DNA from: a virus
IMG/VR virus record: IMGVR_UViG_3300046477_000171
Coordinates: 1-34,409 of that record
Length of the DNA: 34,409 nucleotides
Reading direction: 5' to 3' (one strand)
Below the pieces are notes generated by a model that ran no database searches, was not told where the DNA came from, and saw only the letters and a program-made list of their open reading frames with translations. Positions 3,314-31,997 of this stretch are shown piece by piece. The position numbers and the translations under genes were made by a program. The stretch's first letter is position 1. Every line of letters starts with the position of its first letter.

Positions 3314-4479
3314 TTCCCCCCGTCTCAGCCCTGCTCCAAACAGGTTCAGCGGGGAGTAGTGGCGCCGGCGCGGGACAGAAGGGCCGTGTCCACATTGACG
3401 GCCTCGTCTTCCGCGATGAGCAGGGCGCGATCTGGCCGTGGCGCGGGGCGACCTGCTTCCTGCTGTATCAACTCTGGCTGATGGGCGGGCCGGCGGCGGT
3501 GGATCCGGTGCTGGCGGATTACCTGTCCTTGCAGCCGGGGCCGAATACCATGCGCGTGCTCGGGATGGTCGATTCCTTCGCCCGTCTGCATCCGCAGGAC
3601 TGGCCGAATTACTACGATCAACTCCAGCCATTCGCGCAGTATCTCTGGTCTCACTGGCAGGTGCGGTTTGAGTTCGTGATCTTCGCGGACAGTGGCGACA
3701 TCCTGCCGGATGCGGGGGACCGGGAACGGCATGCCCAGCGGGTGGTGGATACGTTAGCGGGCGAGCCGAATGTGTTCTTCGAGGTGGCGAACGAGCCGAG
3801 TCAGCATAGCAACCTGCCGGGCGGTGACGCGGAAGCCTCTGACCTCTACCTGAAGATCCGACGACCGGGCGTGATGATTGCCACGGGTGCCGGGGATGGG
3901 TATTTCGCCGGTGATTTCGTGACGGTGCACACCCCTCGGGATTCGGACCAATGGATGCGTCGCGCCAAGGACTTGCTGGACGTGCGCCTCATTGCGAACG
4001 TGCCGTGCGTGGCGGACGAACCGATGGGCGCCGCGGAGCAGTTCATCGACGGCAAGCGGGATACGGAGCCGCGCAACTTCGCGGACTATGCGGCGACGGC
4101 GCAGCTCGAGGGCGCGGGGTCCACGTTCCATTCCGACAGCGGGATCCTGTCCCGGCCGTTGCAGCCGGTGCAGCGGTCGTGTGCGGTGGCCTTCTTCGCG
4201 GCGGCGGCATGGGTGTCGCCTCTGTGTCAGGTGGAACCGTTCATGCGCGGGGAAGAGCGCGGGGACGGCGGGTGCCACTGGACCTATGCCCCCGGTGAAG
4301 CACCGGCGCCCTGTCACCACAGCGACGACATTGAATTGCGGAGCTACGGCAAGATCATCGAGCCGCAGTGCTGGGTGACGCAGGTCAAGACCCAGCGACC
4401 GGCGCCGGATCCCTGCCCGGGATGGGCTATTGACGCGCCAGGGCCGTCGGTGGGCCTCACGGTCTTTCGTCGGGCCTAG
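3310..4479 (+). CDS. Clan GH-A-like (TIM-barrel) glycoside hydrolase, possible depolymerase or lysin
   Basis: The 389 residues show the signature spots of retaining clan GH-A glycosidases (GH5-like). 'GLVFRDEQGAIWPWRG' is at about 31-46. An Arg in 'TMRVLG' is R82. A strand ends in 'FFEVANEPS', where N161-E162-P163 gives the candidate acid/base E162. 'VTVHTPR' (H207) follows, then 'CVADEP' with E237 as candidate nucleophile. These are motif assignments from reading; the substrate cannot be told. There is no signal peptide. The N-terminal 25 residues are Gly/Ser-rich and could be a linker. The gene sits between a tail adaptor domain and holin-like genes, so it may be a polysaccharide depolymerase on the tail or the missing lytic enzyme. 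Confidence 0.6.
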   Translation: MIPPVSALLQTGSAGSSGAGAGQKGRVHIDGLVFRDEQGAIWPWRGATCFLLYQLWLMGGPAAVDPVLADYLSLQPGPNTMRVLGMVDSFARLHPQDWPNYYDQLQPFAQYLWSHWQVRFEFVIFADSGDILPDAGDRERHAQRVVDTLAGEPNVFFEVANEPSQHSNLPGGDAEASDLYLKIRRPGVMIATGAGDGYFAGDFVTVHTPRDSDQWMRRAKDLLDVRLIANVPCVADEPMGAAEQFIDGKRDTEPRNFADYAATAQLEGAGSTFHSDSGILSRPLQPVQRSCAVAFFAAAAWVSPLCQVEPFMRGEERGDGGCHWTYAPGEAPAPCHHSDDIELRSYGKIIEPQCWVTQVKTQRPAPDPCPGWAIDAPGPSVGLTVFRRA

Positions 4480-5811: not shown

Positions 5812-5955
5812 ATGCCTATCTCTGTGCACGCGGCCGGTCGCAAGGGGGGCCGGTCTACCTCACCCAAGAAGCAAGCCGCCGCTCGGCTCAACGGGGCCAA
5901 GGGCGGCAGACCCCCCCTCAAAAATAAATCTCGCAGGATGAAAGAAAGTGCTTGA
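5812..5955 (+). CDS. Small basic Gly-rich protein, GRKGG/GGRP family copy 1
   Basis: This 47-residue very basic protein contains 'AGRKGGRSTSPKKQAAARLN' followed by 'GAKGGRP'. It shares the pattern GRKGGx...K..A.R.NG.KGGRP with the proteins at 10020 and 11716, so the window holds three paralogues. The GGRP core with flanking Lys/Arg resembles AT-hook-like minor-groove binding peptides; DNA binding is inferred. It is the first rightward gene of the divergent promoter and has only CCCCCC before its ATG. Its stop lies inside the -35 box of the next promoter. Confidence 0.55.
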   Translation: MPISVHAAGRKGGRSTSPKKQAAARLNGAKGGRPPLKNKSRRMKESA

Positions 5956-5981
5956 CAGGCCATAACCCAAGCCCTTAGGAT
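5952..5981 (+). promoter_or_regulatory. Promoter with operator-like sequence, second site
   Basis: A perfect TTGACA (5952-5957), 18-bp spacer and TAGGAT (5976-5981) lie 6 nt before the ATG at 5988. The sequence ACCCAAGCCCTTAGGAT overlaps spacer and -10. It matches 13 of 17 positions of the element at 5783 and 12 of 16 of the palindrome at 9844. The AGGA in the -10 could also act as a weak ribosome binding site for an upstream-initiated transcript. Confidence 0.5.
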
Positions 5982-5987
5982 ACAGAT

Positions 5988-6218
5988 ATGGCAAACACCT
6001 CACGACGCATGCAGGCGCGGTCGGTCTACGTGCAGAAGGAATACCGGGAGTGTGAGCAGTATTGGATTGATCTAAATCCCGGCTGGCAGAACGGGAACGA
6101 TCCAGGCACGCACAGCATTGTCGAAGAGACGAAGACGCGGGCGAATGAAGTCTTACGCCGTGTGCGGCCGTGCCAGTGTGCCGAATGCCTTCATCTACTG
6201 GCTGGGGTGGCCCGCTAA
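5988..6218 (+). CDS. Hypothetical early protein with C-terminal Cys motif
   Basis: I do not recognise this 76-residue protein. The C-terminal part has 'CQCAECLHLL', a cluster of three Cys that could bind metal; the middle is acidic and helical ('IVEETKTRANEVLRRV'). It is the first gene of the rightward early operon and starts 6 nt after the -10 box. Its stop overlaps the next start (TAATG). Confidence 0.5.
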   Translation: MANTSRRMQARSVYVQKEYRECEQYWIDLNPGWQNGNDPGTHSIVEETKTRANEVLRRVRPCQCAECLHLLAGVAR

Positions 6219-6430
6219 TGGCCGCCCCTATCACGGCGGCGACCTCCGATGACGTGCTCCGCATTGCGGTGGGGCTGGACGACCTGAAGCGCCGGCTGCA
6301 CGCGGAAGCCAAGGCAGGGAACTACGAGGGCGTGATGGCGATTTACGCATCCATGCGCGGGCTGGAGTTGGACGTGATGAGCCTGACGACGCTGGCGGGG
6401 AAGCTGGCGACGGATCTGGTGATGCGATGA
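6218..6430 (+). CDS. Hypothetical small helical protein
   Basis: The 70 residues are predicted to be fully helical ('LRIAVGLDDLKRRLHAEAKA' in the middle), with no Cys and no membrane segment. No family is recognised. It is joined to both neighbours by overlapping start and stop codons, TAATG upstream and ATG within the stop region at 6427-6430, so it belongs to the early operon. Confidence 0.5.
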   Translation: MAAPITAATSDDVLRIAVGLDDLKRRLHAEAKAGNYEGVMAIYASMRGLELDVMSLTTLAGKLATDLVMR

Positions 6431-6561
6431 ATGCCCAGTTCTGGCTCTACTACGGCTCAGCGACGGCCTTCCTACTCGCCGTCTTGGCGGTGGTGGATAT
6501 TCTGGGGCATCGGATCGTGGTGGCGTATCGGCGGTATCAGGTGCGGAAGGAGTTCAAATGA
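6427..6561 (+). CDS. 44-residue single-pass membrane protein
   Basis: The short reading frame encodes 44 residues. One hydrophobic segment, about residues 8-28 ('YYGSATAFLLAVLAVVDIL'), is followed by a strongly basic tail ('YRRYQVRKEFK'). The plan suggests an inner-membrane anchor with a cytoplasmic basic tail. Such tiny early phage proteins often inhibit host functions, but nothing here proves it. Starts and stops overlap on both sides by four bases. Confidence 0.5.
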   Translation: MNAQFWLYYGSATAFLLAVLAVVDILGHRIVVAYRRYQVRKEFK

Positions 6562-6809
6562 GAGAGATCAATAACTTTACCGGCGAGGTGCCGTCCATGC
6601 CGAGTGGCGATGGCAAGCCGCTGAAGCCGCTGACCTGCACCTGCCGCGATTGCGACTTTACCGGCGGGCTGCACGAGAGCATCGAGCACGACCGGCTGAC
6701 GCGGCATCGGCTGACGCACCGGGGCTACGTGCAGGATTTCTCGCATCTGCGGTCGATGGGACCGATTCTGCCGGGGGGCACGTTTCTACCAAAGAGGGGG
6801 GAGCAGTAA
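6558..6809 (+). CDS. Zinc-finger-like early protein
   Basis: The 83 residues contain a C2H2-like arrangement: 'CTCRDCDF' (about residues 27-34), then 'HESIEHDRLTRHRLTHR' (about 39-55). Spacing C-x2-C...H-x3-H fits a zinc finger of the kind scattered through phage early regions. The fold is inferred from ligand spacing. It lies in the overlapping early operon directly before the SSB-like gene (TAATG overlap), which hints at a nucleic-acid role. Confidence 0.5.
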   Translation: MREINNFTGEVPSMPSGDGKPLKPLTCTCRDCDFTGGLHESIEHDRLTRHRLTHRGYVQDFSHLRSMGPILPGGTFLPKRGEQ

Positions 6810-7207
6810 TGGACATCCGTAACGAGTTTCCATCGAAGTATCTCAAAGCATCGGACCTCGGGCTGAATCAGCCGGTGGTCACGATTGACCGGGTCGAGCG
6901 GGACAAGGTGGGGCGTGGGCAGGACACCAAGCCGGTGATTTACTTCAGCGGCAAAGAGAAAGGGCTGGTCCTGAACAAGACCAACGCGAACAAGATCATT
7001 GAGTTGACGGGCTCTGCGGTCACGGAAGAGTGGACGGGTTTCAGAGTGATTCTCTTCGCGACGACGACGGAGTTTGGCGGGGAGACCGTGGAGTGCATTC
7101 GGGTGAAGGCGGCAAAGCAGGCCACGAACGGGGCAAAGCCGAAGCCCGCGCCGGTTGTGCAGGAAGACGACCATGACCATGACGACATCGACTCGACCCC
7201 TTTCTAA
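6809..7207 (+). CDS. SSB-like early phage protein with acidic tail
   Basis: The 132 residues begin 'MDIRNEFPSKYLKASDL', a start I know from a widespread phage early family of unknown function. The central part has 'KPVIYFSGKEKGLVLNKTNA' and is predicted to be a beta barrel. The last 15 residues, ending 'DDHDHDDIDSTPF', are acidic and finish in Pro-Phe. This is like the C-terminal tip of bacterial SSB (ending DDDIPF) that recruits repair and replication partners. A role as single-strand DNA binding protein or SSB-tip mimic is inferred. No aromatic DNA-binding pattern proves an OB fold. Confidence 0.5.
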   Translation: MDIRNEFPSKYLKASDLGLNQPVVTIDRVERDKVGRGQDTKPVIYFSGKEKGLVLNKTNANKIIELTGSAVTEEWTGFRVILFATTTEFGGETVECIRVKAAKQATNGAKPKPAPVVQEDDHDHDDIDSTPF

Positions 7208-7460
7208 ATCCGTCACGGTGAAGATTCAGCGGGTGGGGGAGAGTCCCACCCGCGTGCCGGGGCTGCGGGCGTTCACGATTGACGCGGCGCCGGACCTGGA
7301 GCGGCCCGAGACGTTGGGGCTGCAGTTTCAGACCGTGGATGCCTGGAAGGCCACGTTGTGCGACCGGGCGCGGCAGACGGGCCGGCCGGTGCGGGTGACG
7401 TGGAAGCGCACGACCTACGGCAAGACGCTGACGAAGGTGCAGTTTGTGGAGCGAGTCTGA
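7173..7460 (+). CDS. Hypothetical small beta-rich protein
   Basis: The 95 residues show alternating strands ('SVTVKIQRVG', 'RPVRVTWKRTTYGKTLTKV') suggesting a small barrel. No family is recognised. The start is uncertain: ATG at 7173 (AGGA about 8 nt upstream) or 7179. It overlaps the end of the SSB-like gene by 35 bases in another frame, so part of its N-terminus is constrained by that overlap. Confidence 0.45.
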   Translation: MTMTTSTRPLSKSVTVKIQRVGESPTRVPGLRAFTIDAAPDLERPETLGLQFQTVDAWKATLCDRARQTGRPVRVTWKRTTYGKTLTKVQFVERV

Positions 7461-7666
7461 TGCCTGAGATGAGTCCTGACCTGAAGGCGAAGCTGCTCGA
7501 AGAAGCGGATCCTGCCTGCCCTGAATGTGACGGCACCGGCATTATCGCGGTGGTCTACAACAACGATCCGCGCCGGGAAGAGGACACGTTGTGCGAGTGC
7601 ATCGTGGGCGCCGGCACGCCGGACTGGCTCGAGGACTTCGAGCCGCATGATCGGTGGGAACCGTGA
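7460..7666 (+). CDS. Zinc-ribbon microprotein (CPxCxGxG type)
   Basis: This 68-residue acidic protein contains 'CPECDGTG' (about 20-27), a half-repeat typical of DnaJ-like zinc fingers. A later 'CEC' (about 45-47) could complete a four-Cys site. The C-terminus is acidic and Trp-containing. Probable small metal-binding early protein; the partner is unknown. It starts at the ATG overlapping the previous TGA. Confidence 0.5.
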   Translation: MPEMSPDLKAKLLEEADPACPECDGTGIIAVVYNNDPRREEDTLCECIVGAGTPDWLEDFEPHDRWEP

Positions 7667-7668
7667 GC

Positions 7669-7770
7669 ATGCGCTACTTCTGCGCGATGTGTGAGCGGTG
7701 GTTTACGCGGGGCGGGGACTGTCCCAAATGCGGGTTCAAGCTCGAGATGGCGCGAAAGAAGGCGGAATGA
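7669..7770 (+). CDS. 33-residue zinc-ribbon microprotein
   Basis: The 33 residues have two CxxC knuckles, C5-x2-C8 and C18-x2-C21 ('CAMCERW', 'CPKCGFKL'), and a basic tail. They look like a minimal rubredoxin-type or RPC10-type zinc ribbon. The four ligands are well placed, which makes chance unlikely. A GTG at 7663 is an alternative start that overlaps the preceding stop. The stop overlaps the next ATG in ATGA. Confidence 0.5.
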   Translation: MRYFCAMCERWFTRGGDCPKCGFKLEMARKKAE

Positions 7771-8189
7771 GCGACCGAATCGGCCAGAAGCTGGCGCGTG
7801 AGAAGCGGGTGGCGGATGCGGCGCGGGCGTTTCCGAAGGGGCCGACGCGCAAGGCGGTCAAGGCGAAGAAGGGCCGGCTCGAGAAGGCCATGATCGCGCT
7901 GGTGCGGACGGCGTGTGTGCTCCGGGATGGGCGCTGCCGGCTGATCTGGCCAGGAGTGGACGGGGATTGTCTGAGTTTCATTCCAGACTGTCACGGTCAG
8001 CCTGAATGGGCGCATTTCGGCCGCTACAAGCGAGCGCGGACCAGGAACCAGCAGCCGATGGCCCGCCACAATACGCAGGGTAGTCTGATGTTGTGTCTTG
8101 TCCACCACCGAGCGTATGACGCCGGCAAGTTGAAGATCACCGCGCTGACGGATCGGGGCTGTGATGGCCCCTTGGAGTTCACATGCTGA
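7767..8189 (+). CDS. HNH-like nuclease domain protein
   Basis: The 140 residues have a basic N-terminal arm, then C50, C57 ('VLRDGRCRL'), 'PEWAHFGRY' (H83), 'RHNTQGSLMLC' (H101, C110) and 'VHHRAYD' (H113, H114, D118). The order C..C..H..N..C..HH fits the beta-beta-alpha-metal fold of phage HNH proteins of the kind that recognise or cleave branched or nicked DNA. Activity is inferred; the exact catalytic His is uncertain. It lies in the early operon between zinc microproteins and a winged-helix gene. Confidence 0.55.
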   Translation: MSDRIGQKLAREKRVADAARAFPKGPTRKAVKAKKGRLEKAMIALVRTACVLRDGRCRLIWPGVDGDCLSFIPDCHGQPEWAHFGRYKRARTRNQQPMARHNTQGSLMLCLVHHRAYDAGKLKITALTDRGCDGPLEFTC

Positions 8190-8455
8190 CGTTCCTGCAG
8201 CGGTGGTTTCCTAGCCGCTCGTCCTACGTGTCCCCTGAGTGGCTGGATGCCTTGGCGAACCGGGGGAGCACGGAGGGGTGGACGGAGGCGCCGCGGATTG
8301 ACTGGCAGGCCAACACGTATACCGGCCCGAGAACGCGCCAGGATGCCCCACAGGAGCCGCCGACGGTTGTCTCGACCGCAAGGTCGGATGAAACGTTGTT
8401 CTTCTCTGACGGGGCAGCATGGCTCTGGAAGGGCGATACATGGAGCCGTCTGTGA
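8183..8455 (+). CDS. Hypothetical early protein
   Basis: The 90 residues begin 'MLTFLQRWFPSRSSYVSPEW' and end with 'FFSDGAAWLWKGDTWSRL'. The protein is Trp-rich, with no Cys pairs and no membrane segment. No family is recognised. TTGGAG lies before the ATG. It overlaps the HNH gene by 7 bases and the following gene by 16 bases. Confidence 0.45.
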   Translation: MLTFLQRWFPSRSSYVSPEWLDALANRGSTEGWTEAPRIDWQANTYTGPRTRQDAPQEPPTVVSTARSDETLFFSDGAAWLWKGDTWSRL

Positions 8456-8706
8456 CGCAGGGCACCCTGAGCTACACGCCGAAGTCCCTGAACCCCACGA
8501 GCCTGACGGGGCGGGTGTATGCCCTGCTAGACGCGCACCGGGGGCAGTGGGTGGACGGGCGCGAGATTGCCCAGGTCGGTGGGTATGCGGGGTGGTCGGC
8601 GCGTGTGCGGGATCTGCGGAAGCTGGGGTATGTCGTGGAAAATCGGCAGCGAACGCTAAAACTTCAGACTTCAAACATCGTGATTACGGAATATCGGCTT
8701 TTATGA
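8440..8706 (+). CDS. Winged-helix DNA-binding protein
   Basis: In this 88-residue protein residues about 24-70 read as a winged helix: 'TGRVYALLDAHRGQWVDGRE', then 'GYAGWSARVRDLRKLGY' as the recognition helix, then a wing 'VVENRQRTLK'. This matches the small wHTH proteins common in phage early regions, which are likely regulators or DNA-modifying cofactors. The start at 8440 is preferred over 8419 because GGAAGG lies 7 nt upstream. Confidence 0.6.
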   Translation: MEPSVTQGTLSYTPKSLNPTSLTGRVYALLDAHRGQWVDGREIAQVGGYAGWSARVRDLRKLGYVVENRQRTLKLQTSNIVITEYRLL

Positions 8707-22464: not shown

Positions 22465-23538
22465 ATGACTCGACGGGTGCATCTCTTGTCCACGCCGAAC
22501 GTGCAGCCGGTGGCGGCTGATTACCTCGACGTGTTTTCAGGGTTCACCCGTCGATTCTCGGAACTGCTGACCGAACTCGGGTATGAGGTTTTCTTGTATG
22601 GGGGCCAATCCACGGATGCCCCCTGCAAGGAACTCGTGACCTGCATCTCGGATGCGGAGCGCGACAAGTTCATGGCGGGCGAACCAGCCCATAAAGCGTG
22701 GTATGACGCCCAGAACCCGCTGTTTATCCATTTCAATGTGCGAGCCGCGGCCGGGATTCAGGCACGCAAGGAACCGGGCGATCTGCTCTGCACGATTGCG
22801 GGCACGGCGCAGGCGCCCGTGTGGCAGCAGCATCAGGAGTTGTTCTTCCTGGAGTATTCGATTGGCTACCGCGGGGTGTGTGCGCCCTATCGGATTTTCC
22901 AGAGCCATGCGTGGCGGCACGTCGCGCACGGCTATACCGGCATGGAATACGGGAGGGCCGGCGATGACGTTCTCTACCATTGGTTCCACGAAGACGAGTT
23001 TCCCACTCGTCCTGTCGAAGATTACGTCCTCTACGTGGGGCGCCTTACCTCCGTCAAAGGACTCAAGACCGTCTGTCGAGCCGCCGAAGCCGCCGGCGTG
23101 AAGTTGTATCTGATTGGCGACGGGGATCCGGCGCTGGTGACCTACGGCGAATACCTGGGCCACATGCCGCCGGCTGAACGCAATCGGTGGATGGCCGGAG
23201 CTCGGCTGCTGCTGTGTCCGACCGAATACATCGAGCCGTCGGCCTGTGTGGTGACGGAAGCGCAACTCTGCGGCACGCCGGTCCTGGCCTCTCCGTGGGG
23301 CGGGTTTACCGAATACATCGAAGACAAAGCCACGGGGCTGTTGTGCAAGTCGCTTGAGCAGTTCACGGAAGCGATTCGGCTGTGGGATGCGTTCGACCGG
23401 AGTTACATCCGGCGCCGGGCGCGGCGGCTCTACGGCTGGCACGCGGGGCGGGAAGCGTATGGCGATTACTTTTCACGGGTCTTACCCGAGATGCCGGCGG
23501 CGATGACGCCACTGGTAGAGGAGCAGATATGGCCGTAA
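22465..23538 (+). CDS. GT-B glycosyltransferase, GT4 family type
   Basis: The 357 residues have a two-Rossmann GT-B plan. The N-domain begins 'RRVHLLSTPNVQP'. The C-domain has 'VLYVGRLTSVKGL' (R193, K198 for the donor phosphates), 'LYLIGDGDP', 'LLLCPTEYIEPSACVVTEAQ' with E257-x7-E265, and 'TPVLASPWGG'. The E-x7-E motif is diagnostic of retaining GT4-like enzymes using nucleotide sugars. Being within the head operon, between decoration and fibre-like genes, it may glycosylate virion proteins; modifying host surface glycans is the alternative. It overlaps the next gene by 10 bases. Confidence 0.8.
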   Translation: MTRRVHLLSTPNVQPVAADYLDVFSGFTRRFSELLTELGYEVFLYGGQSTDAPCKELVTCISDAERDKFMAGEPAHKAWYDAQNPLFIHFNVRAAAGIQARKEPGDLLCTIAGTAQAPVWQQHQELFFLEYSIGYRGVCAPYRIFQSHAWRHVAHGYTGMEYGRAGDDVLYHWFHEDEFPTRPVEDYVLYVGRLTSVKGLKTVCRAAEAAGVKLYLIGDGDPALVTYGEYLGHMPPAERNRWMAGARLLLCPTEYIEPSACVVTEAQLCGTPVLASPWGGFTEYIEDKATGLLCKSLEQFTEAIRLWDAFDRSYIRRRARRLYGWHAGREAYGDYFSRVLPEMPAAMTPLVEEQIWP

Positions 23539-27509: not shown

Positions 27510-27925
27510 TGGCGCTCACGGCCTTTCTGGAAACGCTGGATATCTTAGGGGATGGGTCCTCGCATGTCGTGGCGATTGTCACGGATAACGTGTCCGTGAA
27601 GATTCGCGTCGATAAAATCCTCCCGATCAATACCACGGTCGAAGGGCTGAAGGCTGCGCTCTCGTCGGTGGTCACCCAGGCGCCGAATCTCGACGCGCTC
27701 AAACAACTGCCCCTTCATAGTCCGCTGGATTTGACGCCCGCCCCACCTGATCCGCCGACGCCTGATCAAGAGGCGCAGCGGGCGTTTATCGTCGCGTATC
27801 AGGGGTTACAGAGCGGATTACGGAAGGTCGCGGCTGGCGTCATTGCGGCCGACGATAAAGGGGTGGCGGCGCAGCTCGCGCTGGTGCAGTCGCTCTATCT
27901 GCCGGATTACTTACTCCTCGGCTAA
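27509..27925 (+). CDS. Hypothetical virion-region protein
   Basis: The 138 residues have an N-terminal alpha/beta part and a Pro-rich hinge ('LTPAPPDPPTPDQEAQ'). The C-terminal part is helical and ends 'SLYLPDYLLLG'. No family recognised. One-base overlaps to both neighbours put it in the tail operon. Confidence 0.45.
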   Translation: MALTAFLETLDILGDGSSHVVAIVTDNVSVKIRVDKILPINTTVEGLKAALSSVVTQAPNLDALKQLPLHSPLDLTPAPPDPPTPDQEAQRAFIVAYQGLQSGLRKVAAGVIAADDKGVAAQLALVQSLYLPDYLLLG

Positions 27926-28581
27926 TGGCGTATAGCCTCGTCACGCATACCACATCCTCGGCTGGGGCTGCCTCGTCTCCGTCCGTCGATACGAGTGGGG
28001 CGAATCTGCTGATTGGCTGTGTGTCGGCGACGGATCCTGCGAGTGGCGGGTCCAGCATGACGCCCTCGGACAATAAAAGTAACACGTGGCATGAAGCGGC
28101 CTATATTCCTGGCGCGTTCAGTGGGGCCACGAAGATTTATTACGCCTTCAACCCCACGGTGGGATCAGGCCATACCTTCACCGCGAATGGGGACTTGCAA
28201 TCTGGGTGTTTCATGGCCTGGAGCGGGGCGACTACCACCGATCCACTGGATCAGGTCTCGGCGGGCGCGAACTCATTTAGTCCGTTGCAGCCGGGTAGTG
28301 TCACGCCCAGTCGGGATGGGGCGTTACTGGTCGTCGCAGTGGGAGACGTGCAGACATTTCCTCCCGTGACCGATAGCGGCTATACGGATCTGGATTGTGT
28401 CATCACGGTGGGAGGGGTCAATTATTCCTCGGCGGATGCCTACTTCGTGCAGTCGGTAGCTGCCGCCATCAATCCGACGGTCACTGAGACCGGTTCCATG
28501 AATCTGATTCAGGTGAGTTTCCTGCCGGCGGCGAGCGCGACCACGCATCGCACTGGCTTGCCGCTCCTCGGGGTGGGCTAG
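27925..28581 (+). CDS. Beta-sandwich (lectin/Ig-like) surface protein
   Basis: The 218 residues match a beta-sandwich pattern found in many phage and bacterial surface proteins: 'PSDNKSNTWHEAAYIPG', 'TKIYYAFNPTVGSGHTFTAN', 'FMAWSGATTTDPLDQ'. Such modules often bind carbohydrate. It lies immediately before the tail hub, so host-surface contact by the virion is likely. One-base overlap with the next GTG. Confidence 0.55.
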   Translation: MAYSLVTHTTSSAGAASSPSVDTSGANLLIGCVSATDPASGGSSMTPSDNKSNTWHEAAYIPGAFSGATKIYYAFNPTVGSGHTFTANGDLQSGCFMAWSGATTTDPLDQVSAGANSFSPLQPGSVTPSRDGALLVVAVGDVQTFPPVTDSGYTDLDCVITVGGVNYSSADAYFVQSVAAAINPTVTETGSMNLIQVSFLPAASATTHRTGLPLLGVG

Positions 28582-29714
28582 TGACTCGTATCAGCGTGCC
28601 TGGCTTCGTGGACGGCTCCAACACGGAGCGCAGTCCGCAGGCCCAAATTGGCCGAACCATCAACGTCTTCACCGAATCGACGCAACCCGGCGGCGATGCG
28701 AAAGCCCCGAAGTATCTCCAGGGCACGCCGGGGATCCATCCCTTGCTGGTGTGGCCGGATCAGCCGATTCGCGGGATGTTCTCGATCAATGGGCGGGCGT
28801 TCGTCGTGGGCGGGGCGCTCTTTGGCGAGTGGTTCTCGGATGGGACCATCGGCACGACCTATACAGTGACCAACGACAGCGAGCCGGTCTCGTTCTGCTC
28901 CAATGGGACGGCCGGCAATCAGATTATGTTCTCGTCTGGCGGGGATGGGTATGTCTACAACACGCTGACCAACGTCTTCGTGCAGATTACCGATCCCGAT
29001 TTCCCTGTGCCGACGCGCATGGTGGAGTTTCTGAACGGCTATGGCTTGGCCCTGAAGGGCGGTGGGTCGCGGTCGTTCTCGTGGTCGAATCTTGAAGACT
29101 TCCTGATCTGGGATCCGCTGGATGTCGCGGAACGTTCGAGCACGGCGGATAATCTCGGCGCGATGATTCGTAGCCATGAAGAGATTTGGTTCATGGGCGG
29201 GCAGACCAGTCAGGTCTACATCAATAATGGGATTGCCTCAGAAATCTTCGCGCCGGTCTCTGGTGTGGTGCTCGAGTTTGGCGTGCTCGGACCCTTCTCC
29301 GTGCATCGGGCGGATAACACGATCTTCTGGCTCGGGAGCAGCGTGGACGGCTGGGGCATGATGAACCGGGCCGACGGCTACACCCCGCAGCGCGTCTCCA
29401 CGTTTGGCCTTGAGCAGCAAGTGCAAATGCAGGACGTGCCGACGGATGCGGTGACGTTCTCCTTTCAGATGAACGGGCACATCTTCGTCGCGCTGCTCCT
29501 GCCGCGCAATGACCGCACTTGGCTCTTCGATATCACGATGAATACCTGGGTCGAGTGGAACATCTGGGACACCACCCATGCCGTCTGGTTGCCGCATGTC
29601 GCTGGGTCGCATGTCTTTGAGTTTGGCAAGCACTACGTCGGGGACCGGCTGTCCGGTGCGATCTACGAGATGAGCATGGCGTTTGTCACCGACGAGATCG
29701 TGGCGCCGGTATGA
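28581..29714 (+). CDS. Tail hub / packaged DNA stabilisation protein, P22 gp10-like, C-terminally split
   Basis: The 377 residues match the P22 gp10 family through most of its length: 'MVEFLNGYGLALKGGGSRSF', 'WSNLEDFLIWDPLDVAERSS', 'GRADNTIFW'-type stretch (here 'HRADNTIFWLGSS') and 'GDRLSGAIYEMS'. gp10 forms the hub under gp4 that carries the spikes. P22 gp10 has 472 residues. Here the chain stops just after 'GAIYEMSMAFVTDE', where relatives continue with 'IRRLRR' and about 90 more residues. That missing segment is found at the end of the protein encoded at 29875. Confidence 0.85.
   Translation: MTRISVPGFVDGSNTERSPQAQIGRTINVFTESTQPGGDAKAPKYLQGTPGIHPLLVWPDQPIRGMFSINGRAFVVGGALFGEWFSDGTIGTTYTVTNDSEPVSFCSNGTAGNQIMFSSGGDGYVYNTLTNVFVQITDPDFPVPTRMVEFLNGYGLALKGGGSRSFSWSNLEDFLIWDPLDVAERSSTADNLGAMIRSHEEIWFMGGQTSQVYINNGIASEIFAPVSGVVLEFGVLGPFSVHRADNTIFWLGSSVDGWGMMNRADGYTPQRVSTFGLEQQVQMQDVPTDAVTFSFQMNGHIFVALLLPRNDRTWLFDITMNTWVEWNIWDTTHAVWLPHVAGSHVFEFGKHYVGDRLSGAIYEMSMAFVTDEIVAPV
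29700..29708 (+). repeat. Short direct repeat flanking the hub insertion, left copy
   Basis: GTGGCGCCG at 29700-29708 recurs at 31243-31251. The two copies lie at the end of the N-terminal hub gene and at the point where hub-like sequence resumes. At nine bases the match alone could be chance, but the location is exact. Confidence 0.4.
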
Positions 29715-29878
29715 CGGCCCACGAGATTGCGGCGGCCTTGACGCGCCGGACGGATCTGCCGATGACGCCCACGCGGGTCAAGAAGCTGCGGGCCTGCTGC
29801 GAGCGGTTCGGCGTGGATTTGGGCGACGTGCTGCCCCTGCTGCCGGCAGACCTCCAGGAACAGATCCGGCAGTCATGA
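29711..29878 (+). CDS. 55-residue hypothetical protein inside the split hub locus
   Basis: The 55 residues form a compact helical protein: 'MTAHEIAAALTRRTDLPMTP', then 'RVKKLRACCERFGVDLGDVL'. The arrangement of three helices could be a small helix-turn-helix, but no family is recognised. The ATGA overlap at each end joins it to the two hub pieces, so all three are co-translated. Confidence 0.5.
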   Translation: MTAHEIAAALTRRTDLPMTPTRVKKLRACCERFGVDLGDVLPLLPADLQEQIRQS

Positions 29879-31614
29879 AACAACTGATTACTGGTAAATG
29901 CTGGGGATCAAGCGGGCAGTTGTCGAATGACAATCCCGTGCTGCCGGTCAATGGCCCGATTCGCGGAACCATCTTCAGCACGGCCACGGCAGGGCCGAAT
30001 GTCTATCTGTTCCCGTGGGGGCATCCCTGGTCGGTGGCCGGGGTGTTCAAGGACTGGTATGTCGAACTGCTTTGGCCGGAAGAGAATCCCTCGGCCGGTG
30101 GGTGGGATGAGATTACATTTACCCTGCTGGTCAATGGATCGCCCTCTGGATTATCCGTGACGGTGCCTGCCGCGGCGCCTTCGACCCCTCCTCCAGGCTA
30201 TCTGCAATTCGCGCAGAACACGACGGATACCGCCACGATTGCGCCGGGGGATGTCGTCACGATTGACCGCGGAACCGGCCATATCAACGCGGGGATTAAC
30301 AACTTCACGGCGTTGATTGCCTGGACGCTGACTTTCGAGAGCGATAACGACGGGGAGAGTTCCTACGGCTGTGCCCACTGTGCCAATGCGTCGTTGGTGC
30401 CGCCGGCCAGCACGGGCACGGTGCAGGCCACGAACATCTTGCTGACGGCACCCTTTACGGGGCCGACGGATTGGGCGACGGCCTCTCCTGGGGATCCCGG
30501 CACGTTTAGTGTTGTCCCCCTCAATGGCGCGGTCACGCGGATGGATGTGCACATCGACATCGCCCCTGGGACCGGATCCTCGCGCACGTTTGCGGCCTAT
30601 CTGAACGAGATTCTACAGGATGGCAGCGGGGGCACGGTGGATACGCGGGTCACGCTGACCGACTCCGATACGACGGGTGTCGGGACGTTTACCCTGCCGA
30701 TTGCGGTCTTGGACCGGCTGTCGATTGCCCAGCTCGTCACGGCGGGGACGCAGCCGGTGCATAGCTATCTCACGTATTCGATTGCGGTGACCGCCGATGT
30801 CGATGGGCAGTCGGCGCTCGGCTATAACACGGGGAGCGCGAATCCGATTGCGGACGGGTCTACGGATTTTGCGGTGGGGAATGATGGCGGCTGGGCCTGG
30901 AGCACGGCGCGGTCGCCGCAGCCGAACACAAACACGGATCGCTGGCCCTTCTCTGAATATTCGATGAGTATTCCAGGCCCGATTGACCGCTATTCGTTGA
31001 GCGGTCTCTGTATGCAATTCGATAGTGCGCCGGGGATGGGTGCGAGTTATACGTTCACGACGCGCAAAGCCTTCACGGATACGCCCTCGGTGGTCACGCT
31101 CTCGGATGCGGAACTGGTCGCGGTGGGACCGGAGGCGCTGACGACGTTCGTCTCGGTGAATGACCGATTAGCGCTCAAAGGGATCGCCGCTGGCACGCCG
31201 GATACGACGCAGACATCGTGGACATGGTTGGTGACGGAGTTTGTGGCGCCGCCGATTGTCTCGACCTCGTATCCGATTCGCCGGCTGCGGCGGTTCGCGC
31301 TGCCGTTTGCCCAGAACAAGTGGATTCGGATCAGTCGTGTCGAACTCATCATGCAGGCCGGGAACGGCTTATCCGGCACGGTCGCCACGCAGGGCTATAA
31401 CCCGATTGTCATGTTCCGATTGTCACGGGATGGCGGGACGACGTGGGACGATGAACTCCAGATGGAGACCGGCAAGCTGGGCGAGTATACCGCCCGTGCG
31501 TTCCTGAACATGCTGGGGCGGGCTCGGAATCCGGTGGTGGAGTTGACCTCCAGCGATCCGGTCTTCATCAGTTGGATTGATTTCACGGTCGATTACGAGG
31601 AGGGGACGAGCTAG
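29875..31614 (+). CDS. Beta-repeat tail protein carrying the C-terminal gp10-like segment
   Basis: The first about 455 of 579 residues look like three beta domains of about 130-150 residues sharing a pattern of an NG turn, strands, 'VTLTDSD' or 'VTLSDAE', then '.V.DRL..' ('[14 protein letters not shown]', '[14 protein letters not shown]'). The last about 120 residues resume the P22 gp10 family: '[13 protein letters not shown]', '[18 protein letters not shown]', '[16 protein letters not shown]'. The protein therefore seems to complete the hub in trans while adding surface domains. The start is the ATG of the ATGA overlap. Confidence 0.7.
31243..31251 (+). repeat. Short direct repeat flanking the hub insertion, right copy
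   Basis: GTGGCGCCG, as at 29700-29708, lies just before the codons for '[13 protein letters not shown]' where gp10-like sequence resumes. Confidence 0.4.
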
Positions 31615-31997
31615 TGGCGAATCCCACGGGCATTCCCTCGCCCACGCAGCCGATTGGCGAGGATGGCTCGGATCGGGTGCTGGTCAGTCGCCCGTGGTAT
31701 CTCTGGTTCCAGAAGATCGGGGCTGGGGGTGGCACCACGGGGCCGACCGGACCGACTGGTCCCACGGGGCCAACAGGCCCGACCGGACCGACTGGCCCGA
31801 CTGGCCCGACGGGGCCAACGGGACCAAGCGGCCCGACTGGTCCGACGGGACCGACTGGCCCAACTGGGCCGACTGGTCCGACAGGCCCGCCGGGAACGGG
31901 CGCGGATTACGTCGTGGCGAGCGATGGGGGCATTCCGACGCCACAGCCGATCAATGACGGTGCCGGTAACTTCATTTACATCACGTATACCCCATGA
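31614..31997 (+). CDS. Collagen-like tail fibre protein
   Basis: The 127 residues have an N-terminal anchor ('[17 protein letters not shown]'), then about 16 uninterrupted Gly-Pro-Thr triplets (about residues 41-92, one GPS), then '[10 protein letters not shown]' and a short C-terminal cap. The GPT repeat should fold as a collagen triple helix, known in phage fibres as a rigid shaft. At DNA level the triplets make a tandem nine-base-like repeat at about 31735-31890 that can expand or shrink. It overlaps both neighbours. Confidence 0.8.

Follow-up and report, generated by a model that had tools for sequence, protein, structure and literature searches.

A P22 gp10-type tail hub carried on two chains in a clade of metagenomic phages, with exchangeable domains ahead of its C-terminal piece

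How can a short-tailed phage build a P22-type tail hub if the hub gene ends before its last domain? The question is raised by the window analysed here, a stretch of 34,409 nucleotides (positions 1 to 34,409 of the IMG/VR virus record IMGVR_UViG_3300046477_000171), in which a 377-residue protein related to the P22 hub gp10 is followed by a 55-residue gene and a 579-residue multi-domain protein. An earlier interpretation of the letters alone (the sequence-only reading) had proposed that the 377-residue hub stops early, that its missing C-terminal segment forms the end of the 579-residue protein, and that the small gene and three beta domains lie in between. All of this was borne out by profile searches, comparison with solved hub chains and structure prediction, and the first two beta domains resemble TNF and C1q jelly rolls. 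Here the two proteins are called the N chain and the C chain, the hub segment at the end of the C chain the C module, and the domains before it the cargo. We argue that the hub is probably completed by the C module acting in trans, and that the cargo it puts on display consists of adhesins that can be exchanged.

The N chain matches the hub family phrog_578 (486 positions) over profile positions 8-364 (expect value, E, 6e-62), and residues 472-577 of the C chain match the same profile at positions 373-472 (E 2e-11). As the second match begins where the first leaves off, the two chains are consecutive pieces of one hub. The family (PHROG 578, 'head closure Hc3') is that of P22 gp10 and Sf6 gp8 (PDB 8tvr, 8u10, 8eap and 7sg7), to which both pieces show sequence homology. 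The possibility that the N chain already holds the C-terminal domain was tested, and it does not; judged by its profile match, it corresponds to the first three quarters of a hub of the P22 gp10 type. The N chain also matches the solved hub of cyanophage Pan3 (9vyg_M; residues 23-307) and likewise that of Pam1 (7eeq_1), whilst a profile of 42 C modules matches 9vyg_M at 337-439 and 7eeq_1 at 333-437, each near E 1e-14. A profile of one-chain relatives, by comparison, spans nearly all of the Pan3 and Pam1 chains, P22 gp10 and Sf6 gp8. In cultured relatives one gene holds both pieces, with some 10 bases between them, and checked annotations give one-chain hubs of 475 residues in Rhodoferax phage P26218 and 461 in VvAW1, with a single hub gene also in the uncultured circular genome ctfPj964. 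In the window and its split relatives the two regions are instead encoded by separate genes rather than on one polypeptide, and the window hub is therefore a two-chain variant of the phrog_578 family rather than an ordinary member.

Structure prediction agrees with the sequence matches. Predicted alone, the C module is a small seven-stranded sandwich (predicted local distance difference test, pLDDT, 76), a fold like that of the P22 gp10 and Sf6 gp8 domain. Its two best Foldseek matches are the Pan3 and Pam1 hubs, followed by T7-type nozzles, P22 gp10 and Sf6 gp8; in VIA-align the six best rows are all gp10-type hubs (Z-scores 9.4-10.3), with P22 gp10 aligned over residues 356-472 at Z 10.1. 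Profile matches of the C module to sialidases were discarded, as they arise only from the Asp-box motif (S-D-x-G-x-T-W).

The arrangement is not confined to the window. Among the matches listed in scans of IMG/VR, about 50 other contigs show this split, counted as distinct records of which several are near-copies. Their N chains end within a few residues of one alignment column, and a separate downstream chain terminates in a C module; in close relatives sharing the same end the N chain is 76-97% identical. The matches listed contained 153 distinct N modules, 42 split and 111 one-chain, figures that describe those matches and are not population estimates. In a maximum-likelihood tree built from N modules, a branch with a support of 95 in the Shimodaira-Hasegawa-like approximate likelihood ratio test (SH-aLRT) separates the split hubs from the one-chain hubs, and the split character needs one change on this tree against about 20 with shuffled labels. 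An earlier, smaller tree gave the same grouping (SH-aLRT 93). The tree was built by a quick method without bootstrap and its root was not inferred; we consider the one-chain state ancestral because P22, Sf6, Pam1 and the cultured relatives are all one-chain. In none of the split loci examined was a one-chain hub found alongside the split one. The sequence-only reading had called a two-chain hub with extra surface domains an unusual tail design. The split hub is indeed real, but it is an old, conserved, clade-wide design with exchangeable added domains rather than an oddity of one phage. It belongs to a little-known group of short-tailed phages that has turned up in environmental DNA only, and all members with the split are metagenomic.

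Both hub pieces are under the same constraint. The median ratio of nonsynonymous to synonymous substitution rates (dN/dS), taken over eight genomes from the close family of the window, is 0.094 for the N chain and 0.093 for the C module. For the cargo it is 0.353, about four times the value of the hub pieces, and for the 55-residue gene 0.335. Within the same family the C module is 81-99% identical and the cargo 41-84%. A variable domain on a conserved anchor, the pattern of phage receptor-binding proteins, is thus present here (0.353 against 0.093, together with the range of cargo described below). Distances between N chains and between C modules are correlated across 16 split loci (r 0.73, and 0.53 for pairs beyond the close family), which is compatible with a partnership and also with shared descent.

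What the C module carries differs widely from phage to phage. Coverage-based clustering gave 12 cargo types, a minimum for the clade, 11 of them on the tree; single-linkage clustering at E 1e-5 merged almost everything, probably via shared domains. Mapped onto the N-chain tree, the types require 14 changes where 10 would suffice without exchange. The cargo types are unrelated and have been exchanged between lineages, some being common to several of them. They include a family of about 400 residues (loci L018, L104, L108 and L138), propeller-like chains (L119, L126 and L017), laminin-G-like cargo (L205 and L230; Pfam PF13385, below the curated cut-off) and repeated domains (L020 and L105), and in several split loci a short DUF5979/prealbumin-like linker precedes the C module. 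In L184 the window's trio of domains is preceded by a further domain at the N-terminus, which has relatives in the cargo of L205 and L230. L017 has an N chain 69% identical to the window's, yet propeller-type cargo. At this locus (L017:4653-6122 and 7242-8608) the N chain is also interrupted by an in-frame stop and the C module by a frameshift, which are either contig errors or signs of a decaying hub. The trio, as read in L186, is mobile on its own: there (5869-7659) it stands without the hub C module before a different C-terminal part, in a locus that yielded no hub N module either.

In the window the cargo looks like a row of jelly rolls. AlphaFold2, with 12 sequences, modelled the C chain as three beta domains followed by the C module (pLDDT 67; predicted template modelling score, pTM, 0.66). 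Four of the five best Foldseek matches hold multiple C1q or TNF-family jelly rolls (E 5e-8 to 6e-7). Two of the four are chains of the single-chain construct APRIL-BAFF-BAFF (4zch), and the other two are a single-chain C1q head (5hkj) and the complex with the Cbln1 C1q trimer (5kca). Template modelling scores (TM-scores) of these matches are low because the domains are not reliably placed relative to each other, and the resemblance of the tandem triple to the single-chain C1q and APRIL-BAFF-BAFF constructs is to be read with that in mind. Taken separately in VIA-align, residues 1-158 align with 4-1BB ligand (Z 9.1, 125 aligned residues, 3.3 Å), and residues 157-311 with spore-coat C1q-like proteins, Cbln1 and EDA-A1 at Z 7.9-8.7, where a Z near 8 can reflect a common arrangement. 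On these models domains 1 and 2 look like C1q/TNF-like jelly rolls and may have the ten-strand fold of that superfamily, and three such domains in tandem could form one self-contained head suiting a six-fold ring.

These observations suggest how the hub might be assembled. The N chain would supply the hub up to its C-terminal domain, and the 579-residue chain would supply that domain in trans, meeting the N chain at the site where P22 has the two covalently joined. With the C module as its C-terminal plug, a row of exchangeable surface domains would then dock on the hub, and the tail tip would be surrounded by cargo, one unit per hub subunit. Translation of the three genes is probably coupled, each to the next, via their stop/start overlaps, which would help stoichiometry; such overlaps occur at the N-chain stop in most of 20 split loci. 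The window's three C1q/TNF-type domains may fold as a pseudo-trimeric head without the need for a homotrimer. The cargo appears adhesin-like because of its C1q/TNF folds and the laminin-G-like and DUF5979/prealbumin-like domains of its counterparts, and its likely job is binding to the host surface. Some phages have a bare C module beside a loaded one (L018/L138 and L197/L198; about 110-130 residues, the longest frame in L018/L138 being 167), and since such copies exist a C module can work without cargo. That these phages load the C module with unrelated adhesins and, from bare and loaded copies, assemble rings that differ in how many adhesins they bear is a tentative extension of this idea, and we regard it as doubtful.

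Several points weigh against a two-chain hub that displays adhesins. No cultured member was found: tblastn with the N and C chains of several split loci returned one-chain hubs only, and scans of genome contigs found no prophage relative, hence no host. The C-chain model has middling confidence and is poor for domain 3; the relative placing of the three jelly rolls is unreliable, as the low TM-scores to single-chain C1q heads indicate. The median dN/dS of the cargo, for all its speed, lies below 1. We infer the two-chain assembly in the virion, and receptor binding by the cargo is argued from fold and fast divergence.

Among the alternatives, the one that fares best keeps the two-chain hub and gives the cargo another task, such as stiffening or shielding the tail, acting as an enzyme on surface polymers, or adhering to environmental surfaces. 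In its favour, structural decorations are often jelly rolls too, and there are propeller-like chains among the cargo types. However, fast divergence and replacement on a static anchor are usual for host-recognition parts, and we consider a cargo that does not bind the host rather unlikely. A further alternative is that the N chain alone suffices for the ring and that the C module is a mere anchor for a fibre or spike docked outside the ring or on the adaptor. The position of the C module at the end of multi-domain, fast-changing chains would suit such an anchor, as would L217 (5980-8685), where the N chain runs in frame into its own C-terminal extension of about 530 residues at the point where the C domain would begin, with a separate cargo and C-module chain following. 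Against this, every split genome with enough downstream sequence keeps at least one C module close downstream (none was seen within reach of the N chain in L222, L226 and L234, which have some sequence beyond it), the C module is as constrained as the N chain, and a pure anchor would hardly explain the loci that encode a bare C module. An anchor without a part in the ring is unlikely in our judgement.

Programmed frameshifting or read-through could in principle join the chains into one long hub with the cargo inserted, and in the window and in 6 of 19 other loci the C-chain frame does indeed extend upstream, free of stops, as far as the N chain's end. Stops intervene in that frame in 13 of the 20 loci, including all of the window's close relatives tested, which makes such a fusion highly improbable. 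A sequencing or assembly error splitting one long frame, or a decaying hub gene in one phage, has the lesions of L017 in its favour and is almost certainly wrong, as about 50 contigs from many samples share the break point with different cargo and open frames, and purifying selection acts on the close-family frames, with a dN/dS of about 0.09 on both hub pieces.

The sequence-only reading had also pointed to the short repeat GTGGCGCCG at both junctions. The copies are present at 29700 and 31243, but a third lies at 3359. The repeat has no visible role and was rejected as a scar of the split: some 9-mer is common to two random 60-bp stretches about 3% of the time, the residues encoded at the second junction are not conserved in close relatives, and relatives only 34-40% identical also carry the split.

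Features of the two-chain hub locus in the window (positions in the 34,409-nucleotide stretch)
Feature	Position	Strand	Description or basis
Hub N chain, 377 residues, GTG start	28581..29714	+	P22 gp10-type hub minus C-terminal domain
ATGA stop/start overlap, N chain and 55-residue gene	29711..29714	+	Sequence
Small gene, 55 residues	29711..29878	+	Overlaps both neighbours; window's close family only
ATGA stop/start overlap, 55-residue gene and C chain	29875..29878	+	Sequence
C chain, 579 residues	29875..31614	+	Three beta domains (cargo), then hub C-terminal domain
Cargo domain 1, residues 1-166	29875..30372	+	Predicted TNF-like jelly roll (AlphaFold2, VIA-align)
Cargo domain 2, residues 188-320	30436..30834	+	Predicted C1q/TNF-like jelly roll (AlphaFold2, VIA-align)
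Cargo domain 3, residues 373-455	30991..31239	+	Beta domain, low-confidence model (AlphaFold2; conservation)
Hub C module, about residues 464-579	31264..31614	+	phrog_578, solved hubs, fold match, dN/dS

The surroundings of the locus are those of a P22-type phage. The window encodes a P22-type portal (P22_portal, E 1e-119) and coat (P22_CoatProtein, E 1e-24), a candidate head-tail adaptor (phrog_12985, with a weak match to phrog_637) and a candidate for DNA ejection, the neighbours expected for a P22-type hub. Pfam searches with the 377-, 55- and 579-residue proteins gave nothing except a sub-threshold Hira match. The 55-residue gene has no family match in PHROG or Pfam; it is conserved as a protein in 8 relatives and absent from most other split loci. 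The coat gene is separated from the tail genes by one for a glycosyltransferase (22465-23538; Glyco_trans_1_4, E 3e-15; phrog_3408), and by eye L100 has a different, glycosyltransferase-like gene immediately upstream of its hub. Directly upstream of the window's hub is a 218-residue beta-rich protein (27925-28581) that resembles the cargo of L106 by eye; blastp gave no link between the two at E 1e-3. Directly after the C chain comes a collagen-like protein with GPT repeats (31614-31997), whose repeat number and following domains vary among relatives.

Set beside known tails, the design differs from each in a definite way. P22 gp10 is one chain of 472 residues, whereas in the window the C-terminal domain sits on a second chain with added domains. 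The closest solved relatives, the hubs of Pam1 (7eeq) and Pan3 (9vyg), and the closest cultured one, that of Rhodoferax phage P26218, are single chains of 442-475 residues and cargo-free, unlike the window's. Extra sequence on the C domain is by no means peculiar to split hubs. At least 25 extra residues follow the N module in 29 of 109 one-chain hubs, and in many one-chain hubs a single loop of the C domain is enlarged by 30 to about 200 residues (read in L029, L038, L036 and L023); in L029, L038 and L023 the C domain carries its addition in a loop and the hub is undivided. Such inserts are another way to decorate the hub, and its C domain seems to be a site that tolerates decoration. A TNF-like jelly roll likewise occurs in Pam3 gp24, a tail protein held to recognise the host, but that protein forms a homotrimeric fibre and docks through a helical bundle at its N-terminus, whereas the window has tandem jelly rolls on one chain and a hub domain as C-terminal anchor. 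The family PHROG 19101 (595 positions) matches the C module of C chains over its last 75 or so positions, and the 520 or so before them are unlike the cargo in the window. Searches of the open-access literature, judged by title and abstract, turned up no description of a gp10-type hub split in this way.

In short-tailed phages, the usual picture of a receptor-binding protein is a separate fibre or spike with an anchor domain of its own. In the phages described here, a domain of the hub itself seems to have been detached on a single occasion and to have become the anchor. If this is true, it shows that a ring protein can be divided without losing its function, and it offers a natural plug and socket for displaying foreign domains on the virion. 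It would also give a role to proteins that are now filed as of unknown function, such as those of phrog_19101.

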